Shown in pieces: positions 2,878 to 13,690 of a DNA stretch of 53,555 bases. Below the pieces are notes generated by a model. That model was given only the letters and a program-made list of their open reading frames with translations. It was not told where the DNA came from and searched no databases. Within the stretch, counting starts at the first letter, position 1, and each line of letters opens with the position of its first letter. Source of the stretch: Bacteroidales bacterium (GTDB lineage Bacteria > Bacteroidota > Bacteroidia > Bacteroidales > F082); contig JAFZKP010000023.1 in NCBI GenBank assembly GCA_017553625.1, positions 1-53,555 on the forward strand, read 5' to 3'. The translations under genes were made by a program, and so were the position numbers.

Positions 2878-4485
2878 TCAATCAATTTTAACACGCCTCA
2901 AATCCAGTAAATTCACGGGGTTTCCGTCGAATCCGCTCACTCTTTTTTTGACAAACCGCAACACCTCGTCGTAAAACAGTATCACAACAGGCGCCTCGCT
3001 CATCATCAAAGAGTCCATTTCGTGATATATTTCAGCTCTGGTTTTCAAGTCATTAGTGGCAATCGCCTTCGCGTAAAGCTCATCATATCTCGGGTTGGAA
3101 TAATGGGTGTAATTCGGACCTTTCGGAGCAAAATTTTCGGTCGTGAACAACGAGAGATAATTCTCCGCATCAGGATAGTCGGCCACCCACGACGAGCGGA
3201 AGAACGGCAGGCTGCATTGGGCGCGTTTCTCACGCAAAGCCGCAGGCATCATTTCCTCAACTTTGTACACCAATCCCACATCGGTCACCGACGACTGCAC
3301 AAACTTCGCCAAATCGATGTATTCCTTTGTGGTATAAAGCTTTATCTCGCTTCCTTGCAGATGATATTTCTCGATAATCTCGAACGATTTCTGTTGATTA
3401 AAAGCACATCCGATTTGTCCCAACGAGTCATATCCTGGCAGTCCTGCAGGGATAATTCCGCCATTTCCAGGAGTTCCAATTCCATTTCTGAGATAGCGCA
3501 ACATCTTCTCCCTGTCAATCGAATAATTCACCGCCTGGCGCAATGCCACCTGACGTTCTTTATCGTCTCTTTCCTCCTGATTATCAATGTAAAACGAGAG
3601 ATATTCAGTATTTAGATACGGCTCACGAATCAGATAAAAGCGGTCTTCATATTTGCTTCTCAAAAAGCCGTCGCGAGTCAGAAGTTCGTCCTTGTAACGC
3701 GCATCCACACCCGACATAAAATCGGTTTTTCCTTTCACAAACTCCATGAAAGCCACTTGCTTGTCGATGAGAAAACTCACCGAAACGGCATCGATATATG
3801 GCAAGCGTTCGCCATTTTCAAACTCAAAATACTCAGGATTTTTGCGCAAAACCAAGCGCACGCCTTCCTTCCAATATTGGAATTTAAACGGTCCGGTTCC
3901 CACTGGATGACGACCGAAATTTTCACCGTAAAACTCAACCGCTTCGTGAGGCACCACCGAGGCGTAAGTCATTGATAATATGCCAAGAAACGCCGGAAAA
4001 GGCTTGTCGAGTTCAACTTGAAAAACCGAGTCATTCAAAGCCTTGAAAGCATATCCGTTTTCATCTTGTTTCACTTGAGCAAAAATCCAGGTTCCTGGCG
4101 AGCTTAACTTTCTGTCAATCAATCTATTGAATGAGTATTCAAAGTCTTGAGCCACCACCCTCCTACTCTGTCCGTTGAAGCAGCTGTCGTTGTGGAAAAA
4201 CACATCGTTGCGAAGCAAAAAAGTGTAGGTTTTGCCATCCTCGGAGATGTCCCAACTCTTCGCTACCGCCGGCACCACGTTCATTTCGTTATCGAAGGCT
4301 ACGAGGCTGTTATACAATTGGTTACAGGCCCAGATATGCGGCTGGTCCTTAGCATAAATCGGGTCCAAAGTGAGGATCCCCGCCGCCTCGTTGTACTTGA
4401 AAATCTTCAAGTTCGAATCAGCGTCGCGCTTTCCGCAGGAAGCGAGAAGTAACAATAATATCGATACAAATAATAATTTCTTCAT
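2878..4485 (-). CDS. Peptide/oligopeptide-binding lipoprotein (SBP family 5)
   Basis: About 535 residues. The ATG at 4485 starts a lipoprotein signal MKKLLFVSILLLLLASCGKR with lipobox LASC; more upstream starts would add an implausible N-terminal extension. The mature part matches family 5 extracellular solute-binding proteins (OppA/DppA-like): ILTLDPIYAKD near the start, GTGPFKFQYWKEGVRLVLRKN in the middle, and AVNYSIDREKML. It would bind peptides in the periplasm for an ABC importer. No permease or ATPase genes lie nearby, so the partner is elsewhere or the protein acts alone; orphan family members are common in this phylum. Confidence 0.9.
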   Translation of the reverse strand: MKKLLFVSILLLLLASCGKRDADSNLKIFKYNEAAGILTLDPIYAKDQPHIWACNQLYNSLVAFDNEMNVVPAVAKSWDISEDGKTYTFLLRNDVFFHNDSCFNGQSRRVVAQDFEYSFNRLIDRKLSSPGTWIFAQVKQDENGYAFKALNDSVFQVELDKPFPAFLGILSMTYASVVPHEAVEFYGENFGRHPVGTGPFKFQYWKEGVRLVLRKNPEYFEFENGERLPYIDAVSVSFLIDKQVAFMEFVKGKTDFMSGVDARYKDELLTRDGFLRSKYEDRFYLIREPYLNTEYLSFYIDNQEERDDKERQVALRQAVNYSIDREKMLRYLRNGIGTPGNGGIIPAGLPGYDSLGQIGCAFNQQKSFEIIEKYHLQGSEIKLYTTKEYIDLAKFVQSSVTDVGLVYKVEEMMPAALREKRAQCSLPFFRSSWVADYPDAENYLSLFTTENFAPKGPNYTHYSNPRYDELYAKAIATNDLKTRAEIYHEMDSLMMSEAPVVILFYDEVLRFVKKRVSGFDGNPVNLLDLRRVKID

Positions 4486-4491
4486 AACAGA

Positions 4492-4564
4492 GGATTTCTC
4501 CATTCCGCTTCGCTTCAGTCGAAATGACAAACCGCTGTCATTTCGAGCTTGTCGAGAAATCCTT
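4492..4564. repeat. Dispersed inverted repeat, family 2 copy
   Basis: Inverted repeat with outer arms GGATTTCTC / GAGAAATCC and inner arms TCGAAATGACA / TGTCATTTCGA. It sits in the divergent spacer between the peptide-binding lipoprotein and the next plus-strand gene. Related inverted repeats built on AATGACA / TGTCATT lie near 29871 and 46299. Confidence 0.7.
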
Positions 4565-4567
4565 TTG

Positions 4568-4613: not shown

Positions 4614-5168
4614 ATGCGCATTAAGAAAATCCACAGCGACCGCGGCGTCCTCGTCATCACCGATTTCGGTGACCGCACGATAGTCATTCCATTGAACAAC
4701 CGTGACAAACTGTTGAGTTTCATGCGCTCAAACGCCACCAACGTGCCGCTCTTCCCCATGGAAGTGATTGACAGTCTTGCCGATGTGGCGTCACACAAGG
4801 TTCAAATAAAGATGGAGGCGAAGAAAATTCTTCCCGAGTGGCCTTATTTCGTTCTCGACGTAAACTTCAGGTATTCAAAGAGTTACGACATCTCGTTTGA
4901 GGAGCCGTTCTTCAAGTTCTCTCACCCTCTCGACGATGGATCAACCTTTTTCCGCGTCGAATACGAGGAGATTGAGAGCGACTTCACGCCCAACGGCAAA
5001 TATCGTGGTGCTCACGCCCGCCGCTACCATCTCGACGAGATAATGGAAAGTCTGGAATATCTCGCAAAAGATACCCCAGACCTAAAACTTGAAGCTGTGA
5101 TTCAAACAACCGCCGGAGAAGTTTATACCTCAGAAAAGATTTTATTTAGACAGGATTTACAAGATTAA
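4614..5168 (+). CDS. Unknown protein whose 3' end is repeated downstream
   Basis: 184 residues, beginning MRIKKIHSDRGVLVITDFGD. I do not recognise a family; no signal peptide or membrane segment is visible, so it is probably cytoplasmic. The ATG at 4614 is chosen because a promoter lies just upstream and the preceding in-frame codons fall in a dispersed repeat. The last part of the gene (from about 5004; residues MESLEYLAKDTPDLKLEAV onward) occurs again at about 5935, 7570 and 8468. The final residues RQDLQD come from a separate AT-rich repeat (ACAGGATTTACAAGATTAAC) rather than from the gene's own homology block, so the present C-terminus is probably a junction. Confidence 0.75.
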   Translation: MRIKKIHSDRGVLVITDFGDRTIVIPLNNRDKLLSFMRSNATNVPLFPMEVIDSLADVASHKVQIKMEAKKILPEWPYFVLDVNFRYSKSYDISFEEPFFKFSHPLDDGSTFFRVEYEEIESDFTPNGKYRGAHARRYHLDEIMESLEYLAKDTPDLKLEAVIQTTAGEVYTSEKILFRQDLQD

Positions 5169-5176
5169 CAGGATTT
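5004..5176 (+). repeat. Gene-tail repeat, copy 1 (fused to the gene)
   Basis: This is the 3' end of the gene at 4614, ending in the AT-rich repeat ACAGGATTTACAAGATTAAC that overlaps the stop codon. It is the reference copy of a tail that recurs downstream with mostly third-position differences. Confidence 0.85.
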
Positions 5177-5211
5177 TAAACATTCTTGCTTCTTACTTCT
5201 GGATTCTCAAC

Positions 5212-5772
5212 TCACTTATTATTCTCCTTTTTCCGAACAACTTTGTGTCTCAGTTTCACCACAGCGAAATTCAGCTCGAATTCTGATTCGGTTTCAGTGG
5301 TTTTCAGGTCGTCTCCTATAATATCGGATATGATGTTGTCGCTCTTTTCAACCAATTGCTGCTGAATTTCCTTATCTTGAGGTTGCAACATCTGTGAGAT
5401 TGTTCTTCCCAGTTCTCTCAATTTTGCAAAAGTCTCGATGATTGCAATCGTTGTATCAGTGGCTTTCTTGCTTTTCAGGATTGTTGCGAGCATGTAAAGT
5501 CCCCTCTCAGTGAAAGCTTTTGGATTACTCTTGAAAAATTTAATTCTTTCGAGGATGTCAAAATTTTTGATATCCTCTAAATCTTTGTCAGTAGTAGCAA
5601 ACACATAACCTTCCGGAAATTTTTCAGGATTGTTTTTAACAGCCTGATTTACAATTCTTGTTTCAACTCCATACAACGAGGCAACATCCATGTCAAGGAT
5701 AACTTGTTTGCCTCTCAATTCGACAATCATGTCTTCGATTTGCTCGAATTTTACAATACTTTTCTTTGCCAT
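5212..5772 (-). CDS. ORF6N-domain protein, copy 1
   Basis: 186 residues starting MAKKSIVKFEQIEDMIVELR. The N-terminal ORF6N domain (residues about 5-95) shows LRGKQVILDMDVASLYGVET and FPEGYVF, typical of this family, which is found in phage and Bacteroidetes genes and is believed to bind DNA. The C-terminal tail (about 120-186) is charged and helical, with LVEKSDNIISDIIGDDLK. It has its own promoter -7 element just upstream and stands opposite to the gene whose tail precedes it. A second copy lies at 6866. The two differ strongly at residues 60-90 but are almost identical in the C-terminal third. Its regulatory target is unknown. Confidence 0.88.
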   Translation of the reverse strand: MAKKSIVKFEQIEDMIVELRGKQVILDMDVASLYGVETRIVNQAVKNNPEKFPEGYVFATTDKDLEDIKNFDILERIKFFKSNPKAFTERGLYMLATILKSKKATDTTIAIIETFAKLRELGRTISQMLQPQDKEIQQQLVEKSDNIISDIIGDDLKTTETESEFELNFAVVKLRHKVVRKKENNK

Positions 5773-5798
5773 AATAATAATTTTTAAAGTTTACATGG

Positions 5799-5806
5799 CA
5801 AAGTTA
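5799..5806 (-). promoter_or_regulatory. Promoter -7 element, ORF6N copy 1
   Basis: TAACTTTG on the minus strand, 26 bases before the ATG. The same spacing and surrounding sequence (ATGGCAAA on the plus strand) recur before copy 2. Confidence 0.55.
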
Positions 5807-5934
5807 TAGTCAAAAAATTGAACACCTATTAAAGTGATGTCAATTTTTGCCGGTTTAAATTGATTTTTAACATAAGTTTCACGAAAATGAAGGAAATCTA
5901 AAAATATTTTAACAGTTTCACATCGTCATTTCGA

Positions 5935-6078
5935 CCGTGGCGCCCACGCCCGCCGCTACCACCTCGAAGATATAATGGAAAGTCTGGAATATCTCGTAAA
6001 AGACACCCCAGACTTAAAACTTGAAGCAGTGATTCAAACCATCGCCGGAGAAGTTTATACTTCTGAAAAAATAATTTT
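5935..6078 (+). repeat. Gene-tail repeat, copy 2 (detached)
   Basis: Repeats the last part of the gene at 4614, starting at CGTGGCGCCCACGCC and remaining open in the same reading frame through the YTSEKIIF-encoding end. It has no upstream gene body, so it is a displaced 3' end. Its differences from copy 1 are mostly synonymous. Confidence 0.85.
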
Positions 6079-6109
6079 CAAAAATAGCTGCACGGTTCAA
6101 AAATATTTG

Positions 6110-6117
6110 TATCTTTG
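6110..6117 (+). promoter_or_regulatory. Promoter -7 element of putative small RNA 1
   Basis: TATCTTTG fits TAnnTTTG. The preceding 40 bases are shared with the second copy at 7779, including AGCTGCAC near the -33 position, although no clean TTTG is present there. Confidence 0.6.
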
Positions 6118-6121
6118 CACC

Positions 6122-6207
6122 CAGAAATCAATAGGGGAACAGTCCAGTTTAGACGTCCATAATTTGGTGATGACCTCGTCGGAGAGAGCCAACCTGTCGG
6201 TTTCTTT
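6122..6207 (+). ncRNA. Putative small RNA 1, convergent with a 137-aa protein gene
   Basis: About 85 bases between a promoter -7 element and a terminator. The sequence AGAAATCAATAGGGGAACAG and the later part GGAGAGAGCCAACC are the same in the copy at 7792, although the surrounding DNA has drifted. Two small hairpins can be drawn: CTC-GTCG-GAG and the terminator AACC-TGTC-GGTT followed by TCTTTTTTT. A reading frame exists across it but has no conserved start, and the second copy carries an indel, which argues against coding. I do not recognise a known RNA family. The RNA ends immediately before the stop codon of the convergent gene. Confidence 0.6.
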
Positions 6208-6208
6208 T
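6189..6208 (+). terminator. Intrinsic terminator of putative small RNA 1
   Basis: A short stem AACC/GGTT with loop TGTC followed by a run of T. It is identical in the second copy. Confidence 0.6.
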
Positions 6209-6209
6209 T

Positions 6210-6623
6210 TTATGCCTTTATCGCTGTAATACAGTATTGTATCTTCTCCCCTGACTTTTTAATACCGACAGTCATTTTTACCATCCCTATACCAACCAAA
6301 TCATATTTCATAACTTGAATTTGGACAAAATTGTCCTGATTCTTGCTTCCTCTTTTTGTTGGTTTTGGTTTACCAACTTTGACAGCATAGCGCAATATTG
6401 TATCTAGTTGCAGCAATGCCAATGTGGATGTATAACTTTTAGCTGCATGACGTTTTGTTTCGGTTATCGACAAATAACGAATGTTTATATAATCTTTCAA
6501 CGACCGATTATACACACGTTTATCCGGGTTTTCTTCCGTCCAACAACGATACACTTGTAATATAATTTCTTCTCTAATTTTAAAATTTTCTTTACTGTTT
6601 TCAAAAGGTATATTCATACGCAT
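6210..6623 (-). CDS. Unknown 137-aa protein paired with a small RNA, copy 1
   Basis: A 137-residue protein beginning MRMNIPFENSKENFKIREEI. It is mostly helical in its first 85 residues (YNRSLKDYINIRYLSITETK) and basic in the middle (KPKPTKRGSKNQ), then has a beta-rich end (LVGIGMVKMTVGIKKSGEK). No signal peptide or membrane segment is seen, and I do not recognise the family. The stop codon abuts the terminator of the opposing putative RNA. A -7 element about 109 bases upstream gives a long leader shared with copy 2 (7879), which is about 80% identical by eye. The basic middle and the RNA partner suggest nucleic-acid binding, but this is inference. Confidence 0.75.
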   Translation of the reverse strand: MRMNIPFENSKENFKIREEIILQVYRCWTEENPDKRVYNRSLKDYINIRYLSITETKRHAAKSYTSTLALLQLDTILRYAVKVGKPKPTKRGSKNQDNFVQIQVMKYDLVGIGMVKMTVGIKKSGEKIQYCITAIKA

Positions 6624-6731
6624 TTTAAATATTAAATTTATTCAACAATTCATAACCATTTCGCAATCAAGCGATTTCATCCTCTTCAATAAATTTTACG
6701 ATGCTCTTTGGAGTTTGATTCAAAATCAGTT

Positions 6732-6739
6732 GCAAAAAT
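6732..6739 (-). promoter_or_regulatory. Promoter of the 137-aa gene, copy 1
   Basis: TATTTTTG on the minus strand, with TTG (6760-6762) 20 bases further upstream, a good Bacteroides-type pair. It lies about 109 bases before the ATG, so the transcript has a long leader, conserved in copy 2. Confidence 0.6.
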
Positions 6740-6784
6740 AAGGCAAAAAAGGTTCGTTGTCAAGTGGTTTTTGGCAAACTTGAC

Positions 6785-6826
6785 AAGATTTTATTTAGAC
6801 AGGATTTACAAGATTAACAGGATTTA
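6785..6826 (+). repeat. Gene-tail repeat, copy 3 (short, terminal part only)
   Basis: Matches only the last 40 or so bases of copy 1 (AAGATTTTATTTAGACAGGA and the ACAGGATTTACAAGATTAAC repeat). It is followed, as in copy 1, by a pyrimidine-rich stretch and the 3' end of an ORF6N gene. Confidence 0.8.
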
Positions 6827-6865
6827 ATATTCTGTCTCCTGGATTCTGGCTTCTGTCTTCTCAAC

Positions 6866-7426
6866 TCACTTATTATTCTCCTTTTTCCTTACAACCTTAT
6901 GCCTCAGTTTGACCACGGCGAAATTCAGCTCAAATTCTGATTCGGTTTCAGTGGTTTTCAGGTCATCACCGATAATATCAGAAATGATATTGTCACTCTT
7001 TTCGACTAATTGTTGCTGTGTTTCTTTATCTTGAGGTTGCGACATCTGTGAAATAGTTCTTCCCAGTTCTCTCAATTTTGCAAAAGTCTCGATGATTGCA
7101 ATCGTTGTTTCAGTTGCCACATCGCTTTTCAAAATGGTTGCCAACATGTAAAGGCCTTTTTCAGTGAATGCTTTCACAGGCACGTATGAATGTTTCAAAT
7201 TAGCGAACTGGTCAAAATTTTTGACCAGTTCCATTTCTTCGTTAGTCGCAGTAAATACATAACCTTCCGGGAATTTCTTCGGATTGTTTTTAACAGCTTG
7301 GTTAATAACTTTTGTCTCAACTCCGTACAAGTCAGCGACGTCTGCGTCGATAATAACTTGCTTCCCACGCAAATCGATTATCTTATCTTCGATTTGCTCG
7401 AATTTCACAATACTTTTCTTTGCCAT
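6866..7426 (-). CDS. ORF6N-domain protein, copy 2
   Basis: 186 residues, the same length as copy 1, starting at the ATG of MAKKSIVKFEQIEDKIIDLR; upstream in-frame starts are not used because a promoter lies between. It has the same ORF6N domain (LRGKQVIIDADVADLYGVET) and charged C-terminal tail. Against copy 1, residues about 60-90 are largely different (NEEMELVKNFDQFANLKHSY), while the last 65 residues are nearly identical. This uneven divergence suggests recombination or selection on the central segment. It lies next to gene-tail copies on both sides. Confidence 0.88.
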   Translation of the reverse strand: MAKKSIVKFEQIEDKIIDLRGKQVIIDADVADLYGVETKVINQAVKNNPKKFPEGYVFTATNEEMELVKNFDQFANLKHSYVPVKAFTEKGLYMLATILKSDVATETTIAIIETFAKLRELGRTISQMSQPQDKETQQQLVEKSDNIISDIIGDDLKTTETESEFELNFAVVKLRHKVVRKKENNK

Positions 7427-7450
7427 AATTATAAATTTTAATTTACATGG

Positions 7451-7458
7451 CAAAATTA
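7451..7458 (-). promoter_or_regulatory. Promoter -7 element, ORF6N copy 2
   Basis: TAATTTTG on the minus strand, 24 bases before the ATG, in the same context as copy 1. Confidence 0.55.
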
Positions 7459-7569
7459 TATTCAAAGAACCAAAAGTCAATTATTGTCATACTGTTTTTT
7501 GCAGTCAAAAAGTGATTTTTAACTAAAAAAGCATGAAAATGAATTAAATCTTAAAAAGTTTTAACAATT

Positions 7570-7688
7570 CCACCTCGACGAAATAATGGAAAGTCTGGAA
7601 TATCTTGCCAAAGACATCCCAAACTTAAAACTTGAAGCAGTGATTCAAACAACCGCCGGAGAGGTTTACACCTCCGACAAAATTATTT
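7570..7688 (+). repeat. Gene-tail repeat, copy 4 (detached)
   Basis: Repeats the gene tail from CCACCTCGACG to the codons for YTSDKII, open in frame, with mostly third-position differences from the other copies. It is followed by a pyrimidine-rich stretch and the second small-RNA module. Confidence 0.85.
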
Positions 7689-7778
7689 GCACAAGACTTA
7701 GCATTCTGACTTCTGCCTCCTGGCTTCTGTCTTCTTAAAAAATTTTTCAAAAACAGCTGCACTTATTAAAAAAGTTTG

Positions 7779-7786
7779 TATCTTTG
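7779..7786 (+). promoter_or_regulatory. Promoter -7 element of putative small RNA 2
   Basis: TATCTTTG, identical to copy 1, again preceded by AGCTGCAC. Confidence 0.6.
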
Positions 7787-7791
7787 CACCC

Positions 7792-7880
7792 AGAAATCAA
7801 TAGGGGAACAGTCCGTATCGACGTCCACAATTTGGCGATGACCTCTTCGGAGAGAGCCAACCTGTCGGTTTCTTTTTTTT
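7792..7880 (+). ncRNA. Putative small RNA 2, convergent with a 137-aa protein gene
   Basis: Second copy of the putative RNA at 6122, about 90% identical by eye. The small hairpin becomes CTC-TTCG-GAG, changing the loop from GTCG to the stable UUCG tetraloop while keeping the stem; the terminator stem AACC/GGTT and T run are unchanged. One base is missing relative to copy 1 near GTCCGTATC, which would break any shared reading frame. The T run just overlaps the stop codon of the opposing gene. Confidence 0.6.
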
Positions 7881-8292
7881 ATGCCCTTATCGCTGTAATG
7901 CAATATTGAATTTTCTCCCCGTTACGTTTAATTCCAACCGTCATTTTCACCACCCCAATGCCCACCAATTCATAATGCATTTCCTGAATTTGCATAAAAT
8001 GCTCCTGATTTTTTACGCCTTTCTTGGGACGTTTGGGGTTGCCGAATTTTACAGAATATCTCAATATTGTATCAAGTTGAAGCATAGCTAAAGTCGAATA
8101 ATAGCTCTTAGCAGCATGATGCTTGGTCTCTGTAATCGACAAATAACGAATGTTTATATAATCTTTCAATGACCGATTATACACACGTTTATCCGGATTC
8201 TCCTCCGTCCAACGACGATACACTTGTGAAATAATTCCTTCACGAATTTTAATGTCTTCTTTACTGTTTTCAAAAGGTATATTCATACGCAT
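7879..8292 (-). CDS. Unknown 137-aa protein paired with a small RNA, copy 2
   Basis: 137 residues beginning MRMNIPFENSKEDIKIREGI, the same length as copy 1 and about 80% identical by eye. The N-terminal helical part (TEENPDKRVYNRSLKDYINI) and the last 20 residues are best conserved; the basic middle (GNPKRPKKGVKNQ) varies. Conservation of length and frame indicates that both copies are real genes. Upstream lies the same leader of about 110 bases with its own promoter. The function is unknown. Confidence 0.75.
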   Translation of the reverse strand: MRMNIPFENSKEDIKIREGIISQVYRRWTEENPDKRVYNRSLKDYINIRYLSITETKHHAAKSYYSTLAMLQLDTILRYSVKFGNPKRPKKGVKNQEHFMQIQEMHYELVGIGVVKMTVGIKRNGEKIQYCITAIRA

Positions 8293-8401
8293 TTTTAATT
8301 TTAAACTTATTCAACAATTCATAAACATTTGGCAATCAAGCGATTGCTTTTTCTTCAATAAATATTACGATGCTCTTTGGAGTTTGATTCGAAATCAGAT
8401 G

Positions 8402-8409
8402 CAAAAATA
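8402..8409 (-). promoter_or_regulatory. Promoter of the 137-aa gene, copy 2
   Basis: TATTTTTG on the minus strand, about 110 bases before the ATG, equivalent to the element at 6732. Confidence 0.6.
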
Positions 8410-8467
8410 AGACAAAAAAGGTTTGTTGTCAAGAGGTTTTTGGAAATTTTGACATTTATACAGAATA

Positions 8468-8599
8468 AAAGTCTGGAATATCTCGCAAAAGACACCCCAG
8501 ACTTAAAACTTGAAGCTGTGATTCAAACAACCGCCGGCGAGGTTTATACTTCAGAGAAGATTATATTTAGACAGGATTTACAAGATTAACAAGATTTTT
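8468..8599 (+). repeat. Gene-tail repeat, copy 5 (end of the array)
   Basis: Repeats the gene tail from AAAGTCTGGAATATCTCGC to the stop codon and the ACAGGATTTACAAGATTAAC repeat, open in frame throughout and the closest to copy 1 at its 3' end. It closes the array; the next feature is the end of a minus-strand lipoprotein gene. Confidence 0.85.
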
Positions 8600-8621
8600 A
8601 CAAAGACTACATATGTCATAA

Positions 8622-10001
8622 CTAATCATTTCTTCTGACATTTATGTTCCTAGGTTTATTCAAAACAGCATTAAGGCTTTTTATGTAGTCAGCCCTAAAA
8701 TAATATAAACAAATCTCATTCCATGGGTTGTGTGAGTCATATTTTCCACACATAACGCTATTATCTATTTTGTTTCTATAAATCGATATAGTATCATTCA
8801 GAGTAGTTTCAAATGTAAAATTCTCTTCAAGATAACAATTAAGCAAATGCTCCACAGTAGGTCTAATATATAAATCCGCCTCAAAATAACTTCCATTATC
8901 AAAGCAAAAGTCCATTTCACCGCATGCATATGAATAGCCATTATAACCTGTATATTGGTAAACCAAAAGCGTATCGTTAACATATCCTGCTTGATAAGGA
9001 TTGCCATACAATTCTCTTATCCTATCACCGCCACATCCAAATTCAAAAGTCGGCTCTCTAAACAAATCAACAATTACATCAATTGTTAAACTATGAAAAC
9101 CATTGTCCAATGTTACTTGAGCACTCCCAACATTCTTTCCAGTCAAAATACCATCTTCCGAAACTGTTACATACATATTGTTAGAAGATGTATAGATTAT
9201 AGGATATGCTGAAGAATCAACAATCTTGTGTTCCTCCCTTAAAGCCATATGAATTGGATTATCATCATAATAATACAATTCATCCCACATTTGCTGTGTT
9301 GTAAACACTTTTTCTTCTCCAAAATAACACTGCATCCCATCTAATGCGTAGGCTCTAACATGATATGTTGTATTTCCAACAAGACCAGTAATAGTACATA
9401 CAAAAGGCTCATTCCAAATATCTGTCGACACAAAATTATCACTTGGCAAAGGATTTCCTTCAGTATTCCAACATACACCCAATTCCGTTAATGATAAGCC
9501 ATTGGTTACAACAGCATCACCACCACAAACGGCAGAGCATGTAGTAATTTCCTGTGGAGTATATGTATGAATCGTAATATTTGTAGGGTTTAGTGTTGTC
9601 GTAAATGTTTTTATCTCGCCATAATAGTATTCCAATCCTCGCAAAGCATAAGCTCTTACATAATAACGCGTTTCTGGTTCAAGTCCAGTTATTGTGCATA
9701 TAAATGGTTCATCCCACACTTCCGTAGACACATGATTATCATTTGCTTCTGGATTTCCTTCTGTATTCCAGCAAACTCCAATTTCAGTTAACGATAGTCC
9801 TTGGATAACAACGACATCGCCACCGCACAAAGCACTCGTATTAGAAATGTTTTGTGGAGAATAAGTCGTTACCTTCACATCACTATTAGTATTACCTCCG
9901 CTTCCACCTAAATTTGACGTATTGTCAGAATCTTTTTTACACCCAGAAACAATAATGGTCAACATTATTATTCCAATCAATAATTTAATAGAATCTTTCA
10001 T
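8622..10001 (-). CDS. Fibronectin type III-like repeat lipoprotein
   Basis: About 459 residues from the ATG at 10001, which starts the lipoprotein signal MKDSIKLLIGIIMLTIIVSG followed by Cys (lipobox VSGC). Two tandem copies of a fibronectin III-like domain follow (about residues 45-137 and 144-240), each with SLTE(I/L)GVCWNTEGNP and CTITGL...YVRAYAL, then a bacterial Ig-like segment (VTVSEDGILTGKNVGSAQVT). The C-terminal 130 residues are not recognised. Surface lipoproteins of this build are common in Bacteroidales. A long composite hairpin lies 52 bases upstream of the start. Confidence 0.8.
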   Translation of the reverse strand: MKDSIKLLIGIIMLTIIVSGCKKDSDNTSNLGGSGGNTNSDVKVTTYSPQNISNTSALCGGDVVVIQGLSLTEIGVCWNTEGNPEANDNHVSTEVWDEPFICTITGLEPETRYYVRAYALRGLEYYYGEIKTFTTTLNPTNITIHTYTPQEITTCSAVCGGDAVVTNGLSLTELGVCWNTEGNPLPSDNFVSTDIWNEPFVCTITGLVGNTTYHVRAYALDGMQCYFGEEKVFTTQQMWDELYYYDDNPIHMALREEHKIVDSSAYPIIYTSSNNMYVTVSEDGILTGKNVGSAQVTLDNGFHSLTIDVIVDLFREPTFEFGCGGDRIRELYGNPYQAGYVNDTLLVYQYTGYNGYSYACGEMDFCFDNGSYFEADLYIRPTVEHLLNCYLEENFTFETTLNDTISIYRNKIDNSVMCGKYDSHNPWNEICLYYFRADYIKSLNAVLNKPRNINVRRND

Positions 10002-10339
10002 GGTATTTAATTTAAATATGATAACAAAAAAACCGCGAACTATTTCTGTCTCGTACCTGAGGTTCGGCAAAACCCATACTACTAAACAAGAAAGCTCACG
10101 GTGTTGTGAGCATTTCTCCTTTCTTGCCGTAGTATTACACTAAAATTTGCCGATTTCAGGTACACCAAGAAAAGCGAAAACGCCTTTTTATGTCTTTTAT
10201 CTATCTAAATGTCTGTTTCTTAATATTATTTGTTAGTTTGACAAGGCAAAGATAAACAATTTTTTGAAATAACGGACAAAAATAACAAAACTATGCAAAA
10301 TTTTTGAAGTCGAAATTTTCGACATCAAGATTAACCAGA
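10002..10339. other. Gene-free stretch with composite hairpin
   Basis: 338 bases between the lipoprotein start and the end of the RAYT gene. It holds the composite hairpin at 10053-10163, its short tail with a GCG-AAAA-CGC stem and T run (10174-10190), and AT-rich DNA with nothing else recognised. Confidence 0.7.
10053..10163. repeat. Composite hairpin element, copy A
   Basis: Five nested stems on one axis: GTACCTGA 10053-10060 with TCAGGTAC 10156-10163; TCGGCAAA 10064 with TTTGCCGA 10146; ATACTAC 10076 with GTAGTAT 10129; CAAGAAA 10087 with TTTCTTG 10120; GCTCAC 10094 with GTGAGC 10106. Copy B at 41408 has the same architecture with different but still complementary bases in several stems. 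Read on the minus strand it is a potential 5' leader of the lipoprotein gene. It could be a mobile palindrome or a structured RNA. Confidence 0.8.
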
Positions 10340-10837
10340 TTATTCTTTCCAGTTTTTCACATTATCATTGATATAGCCGATAACATTTTGTAAATCATCG
10401 TTTTTCCAGATTATTTCATCATTGTAGTTCCTCTCCCATTGAAACAGCAAACCATTTTCATTGGCATATCTGGTCACTCGTGCCTTCAGACCACGAATTA
10501 CCGTGCCAATAGTTTTGTTTTTCATTGGATTTTTGTCCTCGTCAACCAGATGTGATTTATGCCAGTCAATTTTTAAAATTAAATGTACATGATGCGGCAT
10601 TATCACATAATTTGGAATCTGCGCGTAATCATAATATAGTCCAATGTTTTGAATCAATTCATCAAGAAAATTACCAATTTTCGACAAATGCATTGATTTA
10701 TTGTAGATTTCACCAAAATAATGTCGCCGATTTTCAGTACAAATTGTAATAAAATACGTCGCACCAAATTCGCCATTATAATCATGACGTTGGCTGCGAT
10801 TTGATTCAATACGATATTTGTTTTTATACAATGTCAT
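10340..10837 (-). CDS. RAYT (REP-associated tyrosine) transposase, IS200-like Y1 family
   Basis: 165 residues. It carries the HUH motif in IMPHHVHLILKI (about residues 80-90) and the catalytic-tyrosine helix near the C-terminus (NVIGYINDNVKNW), the pattern of single-strand transposases of the IS200/IS605 type. The start FGATYFITICTENRRHYFG is typical of REP-associated members. Such enzymes process palindromic REP sequences rather than long insertion sequences. A REPIN-like double palindrome lies 59 bases upstream of the ATG, supporting that assignment. Length is normal and the active-site residues appear intact. Confidence 0.88.
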   Translation of the reverse strand: MTLYKNKYRIESNRSQRHDYNGEFGATYFITICTENRRHYFGEIYNKSMHLSKIGNFLDELIQNIGLYYDYAQIPNYVIMPHHVHLILKIDWHKSHLVDEDKNPMKNKTIGTVIRGLKARVTRYANENGLLFQWERNYNDEIIWKNDDLQNVIGYINDNVKNWKE

Positions 10838-11151: not shown

Positions 11152-13647
11152 TTACGCTTTAAATCCCGTAACCTTCCGATGCGAATCCACCAAGAACTTA
11201 TTGTAATCCAATGAATTAACCTCCTGCTCCTTCTCCAGGGCAAGGTCCAAAACCTCGAGCATGTTGTCGACGAAATGGAACTGCAGGCCTTCGATGTATT
11301 CCTTCTTGATATCCATGAAATCGCGCTCGTTGTCACGTGACAAAATGACATCTGTCACATCGTTGCGCTTGGCGGCCAGCATCTTCTCCTGAATGCCTCC
11401 AACCGGCAACACCTTGCCACGAAGCGTGATTTCGCCTGTCATCGCAAGCTTATCCTTGACACGACGCTGAGTGAATGCCGACGTTAACGCTGTCAGCATG
11501 GTGATACCTGCCGACGGACCGTCCTTAGGTGTAGCGCCTTCCGGAACATGGATGTGAACGTTCCATTCCTCAAACACTATTGGATTGATTTTCAACTCGT
11601 TGGCATGTGCCTTGATAAACTCGTATGCTATCGTCGCCGACTCCTTCATCACGTCGCCGAGATTGCCTGTCATATTCAGCGCTCCCCTGCCCCTGCTCAA
11701 GCTGACTTCAATCGACAGAATCTCGCCGCCGACTGGTGTCCAAGCCAATCCGATAGCGACACCTGGCATAGTATGTTTCACCTCCTCCTCATCGTGATGC
11801 ATAGGCACACCAAGGGCTTTCTTTAAATCGTCCTCGGTGACTTTCTTCTCATAATCGCCACCAACAACGATTGCTTTCGCCTTCTTACGAATCACGTCGG
11901 CGATTCTGCGTTCAAGGTTACGAACGCCAGCCTCACGAGTGTAGTCGTCGATGATTTTGTAGATTATTTCCTCAGAAAACTGCACATCTTTTGCCTTCAA
12001 GCCGTGTTCCTTGAGCTGTTTTGGAATCAAATGGCGTTTTGCAATCTGATATTTCTCCTCACGCAGATAACCGTTCAAATCGATGATTTCCATCCTGTCG
12101 CGCAAGGCCGGGTGAATGGTCTGAAGGTTATTCGCGGTGGCGATAAACATCACCTTCGAGAGGTCGTAATCCAACTCGATGAAGTTGTCATTGAAGGTGT
12201 TATTCTGTTCAGGATCAAGGATTTCGAGCAAAGCAGCCTGCGGGTCGCCGCTGATGTTGTTGCCGCTCACCTTGTCAATTTCGTCAAGAATGAAAACAGG
12301 GTTCGACGACTTCGCTTTTTTCAGATTCTGAATGATTCTGCCAGGCATTGCGCCGATGTATGTCTTACGGTGTCCACGCAACTCTGATTCATCACGAACG
12401 CCACCCAACGACATACGTATGTATTTGCGTCCCAACGCTTTAGCTATCGACTTACCCAACGATGTCTTACCAACTCCTGGAGGTCCCACGAGACATAAAA
12501 TCGGGGATTTCATGTCGTTTTTCAGCTTCAAAACCGCCAAATGCTCAACGATTCTGTCCTTGATTTTGTCGAGTCCGAAATGGTCTTTATCGAGAACTTT
12601 TTGCGCATGCTCCAAGTCAAAGTTATCCTTTGTATATTCATTCCACGGAAGCTCAACAAGTGTTTCGAGATAATTATGCTGGATGCCGTAATCTGCCTGC
12701 TGTGGGTTCATACGCTGCAACTTCTGAAGTTCCTTGTCGAAAACTTCCGCCACTTCCTTGCTCCATTTCTTTTTGGCAGCTTTTTGTGTCAGTTCCTTGA
12801 CATCCTGCTCATTTGGTGTTCCACCGAGTTCTTCCTGAATAGTTCTAAGTTGCTGGTTCAAAAGGTATTCGCGCTGCTGCTTGTCGAGGTCTGTCTTAAC
12901 CTTGCTTTGGATCTGCTGTTTGAGGTCGACCATCTGCAACTCATTTGTCAGAAGTTCCAGCAATGCCGTGGCAAACTTGGTGATATCATCAATCTCAAGC
13001 AGTCGTTGCCTATCCTCCATGTTGGCGACAAGGTTACTGCCGATGAAATTCACCATAAACCAAGGGCTTTCGATGTTTCGGATGGCAAATGTCGCCTCAA
13101 ACGGCACTGCTCCTGATTTCTGAACTATCTGCATCGCCATGTCCTTGATGCTCTGTATCAGCGCCTTAAACTGACGGTCACGCGGCACCACCTGATTCAC
13201 GCCGAAAGGCGTAATCCTACCCATAAGATATGGCTCGGTGCCGGTTATCTCCTCAAGTCTGAAACGGCGCTTGCCCTGAATTATAACGGTGGTATTGCCG
13301 TCAGGCATCTGCAGTGTCTTCATCACCTGCGCAATAGTGCCGATTTCAAAGAGATCAGCTTGCTGAGGCTCCTCCACCTTGGCGTCGCGCTGGGCGATGA
13401 CACCAATATCCATACCTTTTTTATATGCGTCTTTCACAAGACGTGTGGTCTTGTTTCTGCCCACTGTGATTGGTATCACCACACCAGGGAAAAGCACGGC
13501 GTTACGCAAAGCCATAATAGGCAACTCCTCGGGGAGCTGCTCAGCATTCATCAGTTTTTCGTCTTCAGGCGAGAACAGTGGAATAAATTCAGTCTCAGTC
13601 TCCACAATGTCGCTGAAAATTATATCGTGGTTGATTTGATTACCCAT
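11152..13647 (-). CDS. lon: ATP-dependent protease La (Lon)
   Basis: About 831 residues from the ATG of MGNQINHDIIFSD. It degrades misfolded and regulatory proteins in the cytoplasm as a hexamer. In order: the LON substrate-binding domain (ALRNAVLFPGVVIPITVGR), a coiled-coil region, the AAA+ domain with Walker A GPPGVGKT near residue 385 and Walker B FILDEIDK, and the protease domain with Ser in PKDGPSAGITM near 710 and Lys in GGIQEKMLAAKR near 753. The dyad is intact and length is slightly above average because of an N-terminal extension, as usual in Bacteroidetes. It lies downstream of the bL31 gene, with a terminator between. Confidence 0.97.
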   Translation of the reverse strand: MGNQINHDIIFSDIVETETEFIPLFSPEDEKLMNAEQLPEELPIMALRNAVLFPGVVIPITVGRNKTTRLVKDAYKKGMDIGVIAQRDAKVEEPQQADLFEIGTIAQVMKTLQMPDGNTTVIIQGKRRFRLEEITGTEPYLMGRITPFGVNQVVPRDRQFKALIQSIKDMAMQIVQKSGAVPFEATFAIRNIESPWFMVNFIGSNLVANMEDRQRLLEIDDITKFATALLELLTNELQMVDLKQQIQSKVKTDLDKQQREYLLNQQLRTIQEELGGTPNEQDVKELTQKAAKKKWSKEVAEVFDKELQKLQRMNPQQADYGIQHNYLETLVELPWNEYTKDNFDLEHAQKVLDKDHFGLDKIKDRIVEHLAVLKLKNDMKSPILCLVGPPGVGKTSLGKSIAKALGRKYIRMSLGGVRDESELRGHRKTYIGAMPGRIIQNLKKAKSSNPVFILDEIDKVSGNNISGDPQAALLEILDPEQNNTFNDNFIELDYDLSKVMFIATANNLQTIHPALRDRMEIIDLNGYLREEKYQIAKRHLIPKQLKEHGLKAKDVQFSEEIIYKIIDDYTREAGVRNLERRIADVIRKKAKAIVVGGDYEKKVTEDDLKKALGVPMHHDEEEVKHTMPGVAIGLAWTPVGGEILSIEVSLSRGRGALNMTGNLGDVMKESATIAYEFIKAHANELKINPIVFEEWNVHIHVPEGATPKDGPSAGITMLTALTSAFTQRRVKDKLAMTGEITLRGKVLPVGGIQEKMLAAKRNDVTDVILSRDNERDFMDIKKEYIEGLQFHFVDNMLEVLDLALEKEQEVNSLDYNKFLVDSHRKVTGFKA

Positions 13648-13690
13648 AAAAAAACGTCTTTCTGGAAACCCTCCAATCAAAAATCATGCC

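Follow-up and report, generated by a model that had tools for sequence, protein, structure and literature searches.

How single defence or toxin-like genes move and pile up without a transposase or integrase is poorly understood. This question is raised by a locus in a 53,555-nucleotide contig of a gut Bacteroidales bacterium (the window, meaning the whole stretch of DNA analysed), where a 184-aa gene is followed by small units with copies of the gene's own tail in between. Behind the gene, the order is ORF6N, RNA+LPD3, ORF6N, RNA+LPD3. Each unit is shorter than 1 kb and contains only an ORF6N gene or an RNA+LPD3 pair, and like parts are spaced near-constantly at 1.65-1.67 kb. The features from the gene to lon are as follows.

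4614..5168, plus strand: functional 184-aa gene of unknown family, with orthologues in L005-L024; the repeated tail is its last 120-165 nt
5004..5168, plus strand: tail 1, attached to the 184-aa gene, terminating in QDLQD-stop
5212..5772, minus strand: ORF6N protein 1, 186 aa (Pfam PF10543, E 9e-27; PADLOC PDC-S05, E 1.5e-74)
5936..6085, plus strand: displaced tail 2, 50 codons (86% aa, E 4e-23)
6115..6212, plus strand: small RNA copy 1 (R1 match), with promoter-like TTGTATCTTTGCA ahead and a terminal T-run
6210..6623, minus strand: LPD3 protein 1, 137 aa (PF18798, 28.2 bits, cut-off 27), convergent with the RNA
6782..6823, plus strand: tail stub, the gene's last 33 nt plus about 9 nt
6866..7426, minus strand: ORF6N protein 2, 186 aa (PF10543, E 2e-27; PADLOC PDC-S05, E 6.9e-78)
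7562/7565..7700, plus strand: displaced tail 3 (E 5e-17)
7784..7880, plus strand: small RNA copy 2
7879..8292, minus strand: LPD3 protein 2, 137 aa (PF18798, 27 bits, at the cut-off of 27), not a sister of copy 1
8467..8597, plus strand: displaced tail 4 (95% aa over 40 residues, E 6e-18), with the usual gene end
8622..10070, minus strand: fn3-domain protein (Pfam fn3, 25.6 bits, cut-off 25)
10340..10837, minus strand: Y1_Tnp-like (IS200-type transposase) protein (PF01797, E 0.004, 17.8 bits, below the cut-off of 23)
11152..13680, minus strand: a protein named from its sequence as Lon protease; the far border of the variable site, a right border conserved in relatives

Coordinates and Pfam matches agree with the unit order given in a preliminary description of this DNA, which listed the LPD3 proteins as 137-aa proteins. 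Of the five tail copies counted there, the attached tail and the copies at 5936, 7562/7565, and 8467 hold up, but the one at 6785 is a stub and not a third of the gene. The punctuation of the array thus consists of three 5'-truncated tail copies (5936, 7565, and 8467) and the 42-bp stub at 6782. No Pfam family scored above cut-off for the 184-aa gene, and its AlphaFold model has a mean pLDDT of 56.5. The weak Y1_Tnp-like protein lies inside the gene-lon gap, with no tail adjoining it. No other direct repeats of at least 60 nt were found at positions 14000-53555 of the window.

We asked whether the tails are real and where else they occur. A chance or low-complexity repeat is ruled out by E values of 5e-17 to 8e-49 for the tails and 9e-10 for the stub, and an assembly artefact is unlikely, given similar arrays in three separate genomes. 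Among 149 genomes of the family, extra tails were present only at the gene-lon locus of the window genome, G081, and G102; L005 carries a tail stub (position 3121). The only matches outside the locus were weak ones in longer frames of G051 and G113, which at 29-32% identity were not scored as having the 184-aa gene. The tail is single in 20 of the 23 loci with the gene and lon on one stretch and is repeated only in arrays. The preliminary description had also proposed ACAGGATTTACAAGATTAAC as a repeat at the junctions. Most of ACAGGATTTACAAGATTAAC consists of the codons that close the gene (QDLQD-stop) and can be aligned in distant relatives; the exact 25-nt word also occurs outside the locus in some genomes (any copy in 6 of 100 family genomes). 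As a mobile element end, the 20-nt junction repeat was rejected, being chiefly the gene's own end.

We scanned 60 loci, each 8 kb or longer and the window among them, for gene tails repeated downstream within 6 kb; the scan took in 803,941 bases, part of them overlapping. Matches came from the gene-lon locus (window, L006/L158, and L008) and from L124, L125, and L130. By eye, the 'genes' in L124 and L130 are apparent chance frames in non-coding spacer repeats. The scan gave no sign that tails accompany ORF6N or RNA-LPD3 units in general, and that idea was rejected. Elsewhere in the chromosomes, no gene tail was seen with either kind of unit, so a tail does not belong to any mobile form common to all of them. 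In L080, L086, and L088, ORF6N does lie between direct repeats (70-115 bp), and a RhuM-like gene in L136 lies between copies of a 113-bp repeat; so far as could be seen, none of these repeats is a gene tail.

Between the gene and lon lies a variable site in which single-gene units accumulate. Across 23 loci, window included, the interval is empty in 7, holds one small gene or pair in 11, and holds several genes in 5. This count omits L025/L026 (one genome split over contigs), L005, and L006, for which L158 stands. Related genomes thus carry the gene with no, one, or several downstream units, as anticipated. Empty sites do exist, but in four of the seven the usual C-terminus of the gene is gone; these four are probably derived, because a small gene occupies the site in the most distant relatives. 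Most cargo here has no tail (single small genes, L007, and L024). Small genes of about 110 aa before lon look RelE/ParE-like by eye; a Pfam search of four of them (L016, L020, L155, and L024) gave no match.

Junctions in the arrays recur across genomes. The ORF6N|tail joint falls at the same point, or within two bases of it, in the window (tail 3), G081, and G102, and is followed there by different genes (an RNA unit, an AAA gene, and an fn3 gene). The RNA-unit|stub joint is alike in the window and L005, again with different following genes. The passage from window tail 3 into RNA2 matches that from the functional gene into the RNA in L005, and the gene-to-ORF6N junction of G102 matches the stub-to-ORF6N2 junction of the window. 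The junction of tail 4 with the fn3 gene is the same in the window and G102, where that gene is also present (L008, 87% aa). The fn3 gene is the outermost, older cargo of the window array.

Codon positions indicate when the tails diverged. Between six tails and their own gene we counted 44 changes, of which 33 fall at third positions; these counts exclude the two stubs (window 6782 and L005 3121) and take tail 4 from codon AGT onward. The third-position share equals that of gene-gene pairs (74.7%) and exceeds the 54% expected with half of the changes free (p 0.006). Among private changes, 6 of 7 in tails are non-synonymous, against none of 4 in functional genes (Fisher p 0.015). The 'close' functional control omitted four of the 21 functional gene tails in one analysis and eight in another. 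An orthologue-like third-position pattern combined with mostly non-synonymous private changes indicates that the tails diverged while functional and have decayed only since, their release from constraint being recent. This supports the earlier view of them as displaced ends of once-functional homologues and contradicts its corollary that they are not decaying.

The tails differ in which gene they resemble. For window tails 2, 3, and 4, their own gene ranks 6th, 8th, and 6th of 21 gene ends and is among the nearest in 2.5-8% of bootstraps, nearest-neighbour results that are weak because the tails give only 84-102 comparable sites. Judged from sequence, the window tails appear closer to other species' genes than to their own, whereas the G081 tails do not: their own gene ranked 1st and 2nd. 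Three G081 tails carry that genome's unusual gene end (VQDLKF) and at least about 60 bp beyond it. With its own unusual end and its own gene top-ranked, G081 is better explained by duplication within the lineage than by import.

Some of the cargo may serve in conflict with phages. Both window ORF6N proteins match PADLOC PDC-S05 across profile positions 3-182 of 183, and positions 16-285 of the 375 in PDC-S01 align with the AAA protein of G081. PDC-S05 and PDC-S01 are described as abundant in rumen genomes (PMC13356809). The ORF6N units are thus candidate phage-defence cargo of the PDC-S05 type. ORF6N matches occurred in 3 phage records at 36-41% identity. Both LPD3 assignments are borderline at the Pfam cut-off; LPD3 had no match in viral contigs, plasmids, or phages, and its profile found nothing meaningful among solved structures. 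Within the set of papers searched, none joined ORF6N with Bacteroidales and none combined three of KilA-N/ORF6N/Bacteroidetes/horizontal.

The small RNA is a three-way junction, genus-restricted, and not in Rfam. Rfam covariance models gave no match at gathering score in the window and none up to E 1 over positions 5000-8700, and the RNA's 5' word was absent from viral contigs. Its partners are interchangeable, either LPD3 or a PBECR3-like protein (L005), and it may act as an antitoxin or regulator of these genes. In type III toxin-antitoxin systems, the toxin gene is preceded on its own strand by an RNA made up of tandem repeats. We rejected this assignment for RNA+LPD3, in which the RNA is convergent with LPD3 and has no visible tandem repeat.

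We propose that recombination inside the end of the gene is what exchanges the units, a reading that we consider about evenly balanced between right and wrong. A unit would be cargo joined to a gene tail, passed from one strain or sister species to another. It would enter from a circle or linear fragment of outside origin, through homologous recombination within the tail (100-240 bp). A single crossover would place the cargo behind the resident gene, with a hybrid tail beyond it joined to the earlier content. Units could stack in this way like cassettes while the gene kept a complete end throughout. Each kind of cargo|tail joint would have arisen once by a rare illegitimate join, with the tail serving as an address afterwards. 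Tail-joined cargo would bring phage-conflict genes (ORF6N/PDC-S05, a PDC-S01-type AAA ATPase, and LPD3 or PBECR-like proteins with the small RNA), and the site would form a small, tail-addressed defence hotspot. The data suggest that cartridges are swapped via recombination at the gene end and not by a dedicated enzyme; we infer this mechanism of exchange, having seen no circle, donor, or event. More tentatively, and with somewhat more doubt than belief, we suggest an integrase-free cassette system in which the gene's 3' end is the homology address. Units of a conflict gene or small-RNA pair plus tail would circulate among rumen Bacteroidales by tail recombination, replacing the gene end each time with the frame kept, and the RNA, perhaps an antitoxin or regulator, would travel among them with interchangeable partners.

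The strongest alternative is insertion with long target duplication. Each unit would have inserted once, duplicating 100-240 bp of the local gene end, and recombination with relatives would have altered the tails later. Long direct repeats do flank the inserts, and the target is single in uninserted relatives. The G081 repeats (198-243 bp, 90-95% identical, with their own unusual end) fit this account, and target duplications on the order of 100 bp are reported for restriction-modification gene insertions (PMC3874152). Pure duplication, however, predicts that the own gene is nearest and that changes are free at all codon positions, and the window tails show neither; neutral in-place duplicates are disfavoured for them by codon positions and shared variants. 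For one cargo|tail joint to recur in three genomes ahead of different genes, inheritance or transfer as a unit would in any case be needed. We regard this explanation as possible but unlikely.

Alternatively, a relative's locus DNA, comprising gene end, its own cargo, and the lon side, could recombine on the lon side and join illegitimately on the left. Each tail would then be the cut-off end of a donor gene that natively preceded the cargo to its right. The preliminary description had each insert bring a replacement tail; the detached tails could equally be remnants of the allele on their right. The native-looking left junctions shared with L005 and G102, the varying left ends of the tails, and the foreign appearance of the window tails all agree with this. 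The near-identical left joints (ORF6N|tail in three genomes and RNA unit|stub in two) speak against a fresh illegitimate join each time, and we judge this scenario improbable.

Gene 3' ends are known attachment sites, and an integrase acting in trans could have used this one. The e14 prophage integrates at the end of icd; the insert supplies the gene end, and a detached copy of the icd tail, 163 bp long, is left on the far side of the insert (PMC6379469). Here, the units are under 1 kb and without an integrase, and the tails start raggedly and range from 42 to about 240 bp, unlike one core site. A search with PF00589 found three tyrosine recombinases (E 1e-5 or better) in the 87%-complete genome, all off the window contig, consistent with the preliminary statement that no integrase accompanies the units; we give integration in trans very little credence. 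Equally little attaches to tandem duplication of one ORF6N+tail+RNA+LPD3 block, offered earlier, as ORF6N+RNA, for the second cycle: it would explain the near-constant spacing, but LPD3_1 groups with three other genomes (99/97) and LPD3_2 with a fourth (86/91, not starred), no bootstrap of 200 unites the pair, which rejects the block duplication unless gene conversion later replaced the copies, and ORF6N2 is nearer the G102 protein (84%) than ORF6N1 (81%) in a tree that lacks resolution.

If exchange by recombination at the gene end is correct, one could look for integrase-free cassette exchange by searching for tail copies behind ordinary genes. In the codon pattern of a tail, its period as a working end can be told apart from its period of detachment, so donor and insertion order could be read from more strains. 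The RNA adds a structured, Rfam-absent RNA that moves with interchangeable partner genes.

We compared the locus with known systems. Its likeness to PDC-S05 and PDC-S01 is by model match, and the window and G081 members are candidates by that measure. LPD3 and PBECR are known as solo domains of polyvalent proteins (PMC5512222), and LPD3 and PBECR-like proteins are likewise single genes in similar units here. The present genes differ in being chromosomal and accompanied by a small RNA, a pairing absent from the passages of PMC5512222 drawn on here. With e14, the locus shares a detached duplicate of the gene tail beyond the insert. However, e14 is a site-specific prophage with its own integrase, whereas here up to four small integrase-free units with ragged tail starts follow one another, separated by tails. 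For restriction-modification genes, insertion with long target duplication was reportedly described by Nobusato in 2000 and Furuta in 2010. The likeness lies in small gene units, variable target repeats of about 100 bp, and no link to a known mobile element; the differences are the cargo (ORF6N, LPD3+RNA, or an AAA gene), the repeated insertion at one gene end to give an array, and window tails that look foreign. In integron cassette arrays, one-gene units stand in a row, separated by a common repeat, and are exchanged as modules; our array shares both the one-gene units in a row and the common repeat. In contrast to integrons, no tyrosine recombinase lies on the contig, so an integron integrase beside the array is absent (genome 87% complete); the repeat is the coding end of a chromosomal gene, and the units have promoter-like sequences of their own.

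The array lies on contig C21 of a genome comprising 52 contigs (2.47 Mb, 87% complete), whose closest named relatives are Bacteroidales from the rumen and gut. It extends from a 184-aa gene that has no Pfam assignment. On one side of this gene is a gene for a protein that we judged by eye to be lipoprotein-like and substrate-binding-like, and the gene bordering the site on the other side is presumably lon. Two ORF6N genes alternate with two units of a small RNA and a 137-aa protein gene 3' of the 184-aa gene. The gene and the displaced copies of its 3' end (tails) are as follows.

4614-5168, + strand: 184-aa gene
5936: tail 2, the last 120-150 nt of the gene
6782: tail stub, 42 bp
7565: tail 3, the last 120-150 nt of the gene
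8467: tail 4, the last 120-150 nt of the gene

Of the five gene-tail copies claimed in the preliminary description, the attached end and three tails hold up, and the copy at 6782 is reduced to a stub. The first ORF6N gene connects to tail 2 through a CGTCATTTCGAC stretch, the same kind of sequence as the intergenic 'GTCATTTCGA' words at window positions 4520-4565 and 5920-5945 and near 6560 in the related locus L016. In PADLOC, each of the two ORF6N proteins matches almost the full length of the model for the phage-defence candidate PDC-S05. The 137-aa proteins match Pfam LPD3 at or barely above the cut-off of 27 bits (28.2 and 27 bits). A bigger defence-like cluster lies on the same contig (33227-45363), with DUF4209, an Eco57I-type methylase, an SNF2/PLD helicase, RloB and an AAA_21 ATPase.

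We found 22 related loci of the 184-aa gene, which has a match in 24 of 149 family genomes (two weak, G051 and G113). The gene and lon share one stretch in 23 loci, including the window and L158. The site between them is empty (≤92 bp, or overlap) in seven (L009, L013, L014, L017, L018, L019, L021). Six hold about 600 bp with a small gene of about 110 aa (L016, L020, L023, L155-L157), accompanied in L016 and L020 by a short partner gene. Five hold a single 133-256-aa gene, lipoprotein-like by eye (L010-L012, L015, L022), and five hold several genes (L007, L008, L024, L158, window). The 184-aa gene occurs with nothing (7), one gene or pair (11) or several genes (5) downstream. Extra tails occur in 3 of the 23 loci, namely the window, L158 (genome G081) and L008 (genome G102), and a tail stub is present in L005, whose contig ends early. 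The gene-to-lon site has been used repeatedly.

We compared 20 gene ends. The usual ending (QDLQD, KDLQD, QDLQY, QDLKY or QDLKF) occurs at occupied sites, even the distant L020, L023 and L155-L157; the ending deviates in occupied L007, L012 and L022. In four empty sites (L009, L013, L014, L018) the gene runs into the end of lon in place of this ending, and in L017, L019 and L021 it terminates in other ways. The usual ending in occupied sites, distant ones among them, and the four genes that run into lon indicate that the empty site is probably the derived state. The repeat previously noticed at the junctions turned out to be chiefly the gene's own end, which relatives share. The exact 25-nt word occurs away from the locus in at least one copy in 6 of 100 family genomes (reversed control, 0). 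The window genome has exact ACAGGATTTACAAGATTAACAAGAT copies away from the locus at C22:3031, C28:67965 and C44:109; the ends of contigs C28 and C44 are identical in sequence, and the two are probably neighbours.

The clearest unit anatomy is found in G081, where the gene, an ORF6N gene and an AAA_14 gene have joints with 198-243-bp repeats of 90-95% identity. The DUF4143 part of the AAA_14 protein is under cut-off, and PADLOC assigns the protein to PDC-S01. The order in G102 is gene, ORF6N, tail and fn3 gene. The ORF6N-tail joint falls at the same point, or at most 2 bases off, in window tail 3, G081 and G102, and the genes beyond the tail differ among the three. Window tail 2 has a start point unlike this common joint. 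The joint between RNA unit and stub is similar in the window and L005, and here too the followers differ; the L005 follower resembles L010, L011 and L015, a weak likeness over only about 20 nt. On the left side, the functional gene-to-RNA junction of L005 resembles the window junction between tail 3 and the second RNA, and the functional gene-to-ORF6N junction of G102 resembles that between the stub and the second ORF6N gene. The left junctions thus look native. The joints where cargo (a gene or pair carried at the site) meets a tail on its right travel or are inherited as units.

The LPD3 tree groups window copy 1 with copies from three other genomes (99/97) and copy 2 with a fourth genome (86/91, under the starred level), and the window pair was united in 0 of 200 bootstraps. 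The ORF6N tree gave no resolution within the group. Tandem duplication of an ORF6N-RNA block, which the preliminary description had allowed, is ruled out by the LPD3 tree, barring a replacement of the copies through gene conversion. The tree placements show LPD3 units of independent origin.

We counted codon changes in six detached tails (three from the window, two from G081, one from G102; stubs excluded). Set against their own gene, they show 44 differences, distributed 6/5/33 over codon positions. The third-position share of 75% equals that among 17 close functional genes (74.7%), and exceeds both 54%, midway between the values for constrained and for free change (p 0.006), and one third (p 2e-8). 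Changes absent from all functional ends were non-synonymous in 6 of 7 cases for the detached tails, compared with 0 of 4 for 13 close functional gene ends (Fisher p 0.015). The third-position share and these private changes together indicate that most tail divergence arose in a working gene end and that free decay is recent. The tails accordingly fit displaced ends of once-functional homologues, as proposed, but not undecayed ones. A window tail's own gene ranks only 6th, 8th and 6th of 21 gene ends for tails 2, 3 and 4, and 8%, 2.5% and 7% of bootstraps place it among the nearest. The own gene ranks 1 and 2 for the G081 tails (55% and 30%) and 5 for the G102 tail (23%). The G081 tails carry that genome's own unusual gene end, which speaks against import. 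Individual placements are weak because each comparison covers only 84-102 sites, and no clear pattern of crossovers emerged when the tails were divided in half. Window tails look foreign and G081 tails are lineage-shared, all of them from recently working genes.

The RNA (about 85-95 nt) is preceded by a promoter-like TTGTATCTTTGCA, and its 3' T-run overlaps the convergent gene's stop codon. It has no Rfam match. A model of 23 sequences predicts a three-way junction in which 99.3% of cells pair. Four pairs changed on both sides (shuffles, mean 0.8, 0/500 as high); further pair types did not exceed shuffles (310/500 reach the count). One slid control also had four such pairs, but only 45% of its cells paired. 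Helices 3 and 4 provide the support, and helix 2 is invariant. Under stricter filters the model found 28 copies among 99 genomes of the genus, spread over 25 of them, and none in 295 other genomes of the phylum. The usual partner is LPD3. The L005 partner, with the same 5' flank, is a protein of 127 aa whose PBECR3 match stays below threshold (22.8 bits against a cut-off of 30), and in L136 a RhuM-like gene lies directly behind the RNA. A 113-bp direct repeat (89%; 7329-7441 and 8551-8663) flanks the latter, possibly another insertion with a long duplication. More distant congeners (L124 in G125, L130 in G028, L133 in G142) have arrays of standalone LPD3, LPD3-like, PBECR and RhuM-like genes, with Pfam run on the L124 proteins; between the genes lie non-coding repeats of 100-500 bp that contain promoter-like motifs. 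The L130 and L133 arrays adjoin a long gene that we take to be alaS.

Direct repeats also flank ORF6N genes elsewhere: 115 bp in L080 (78%), 107 bp in L086 (89%) and 70 bp in L088 (83%), the L086 repeat being promoter-like sequence immediately before and after the gene. Several ORF6N genes of the genus (L148-L152 and L154) have an AT-rich imperfect palindrome (e.g. GAATTGTTAATAAATTTTAACAATTC) about 100-190 bp upstream of their start, near the unit's right boundary. It may serve as an operator or mark where the unit ends.

We propose that units would be exchanged through homologous recombination inside the tail, and that rare illegitimate joins would create new cargo-tail units. A search for the tyrosine recombinase family found no member on the window contig; a weak Y1_Tnp-like protein is encoded at 10340-10837. 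Less probably, each unit could have inserted with a long target duplication, which G081 favours over the stacking of whole alleles at the site, a still less probable account. Exchange within tails remains our preferred reading. Known systems offer parallels. The cargo families have precedents: LPD3 and PBECR derive from polyvalent proteins (PMC5512222), and rumen genomes are rich in PDC-S01 and PDC-S05 (PMC13356809). The array works like e14, which leaves a 163-bp duplicated gene end at icd (PMC6379469), and like restriction-modification genes, whose insertion can duplicate target sequence on the order of 100 bp (PMC3874152). Unlike e14, its units are free of an integrase; unlike restriction-modification insertions, its cargo is small and non-restriction; and it differs from both in stacking at one gene end.
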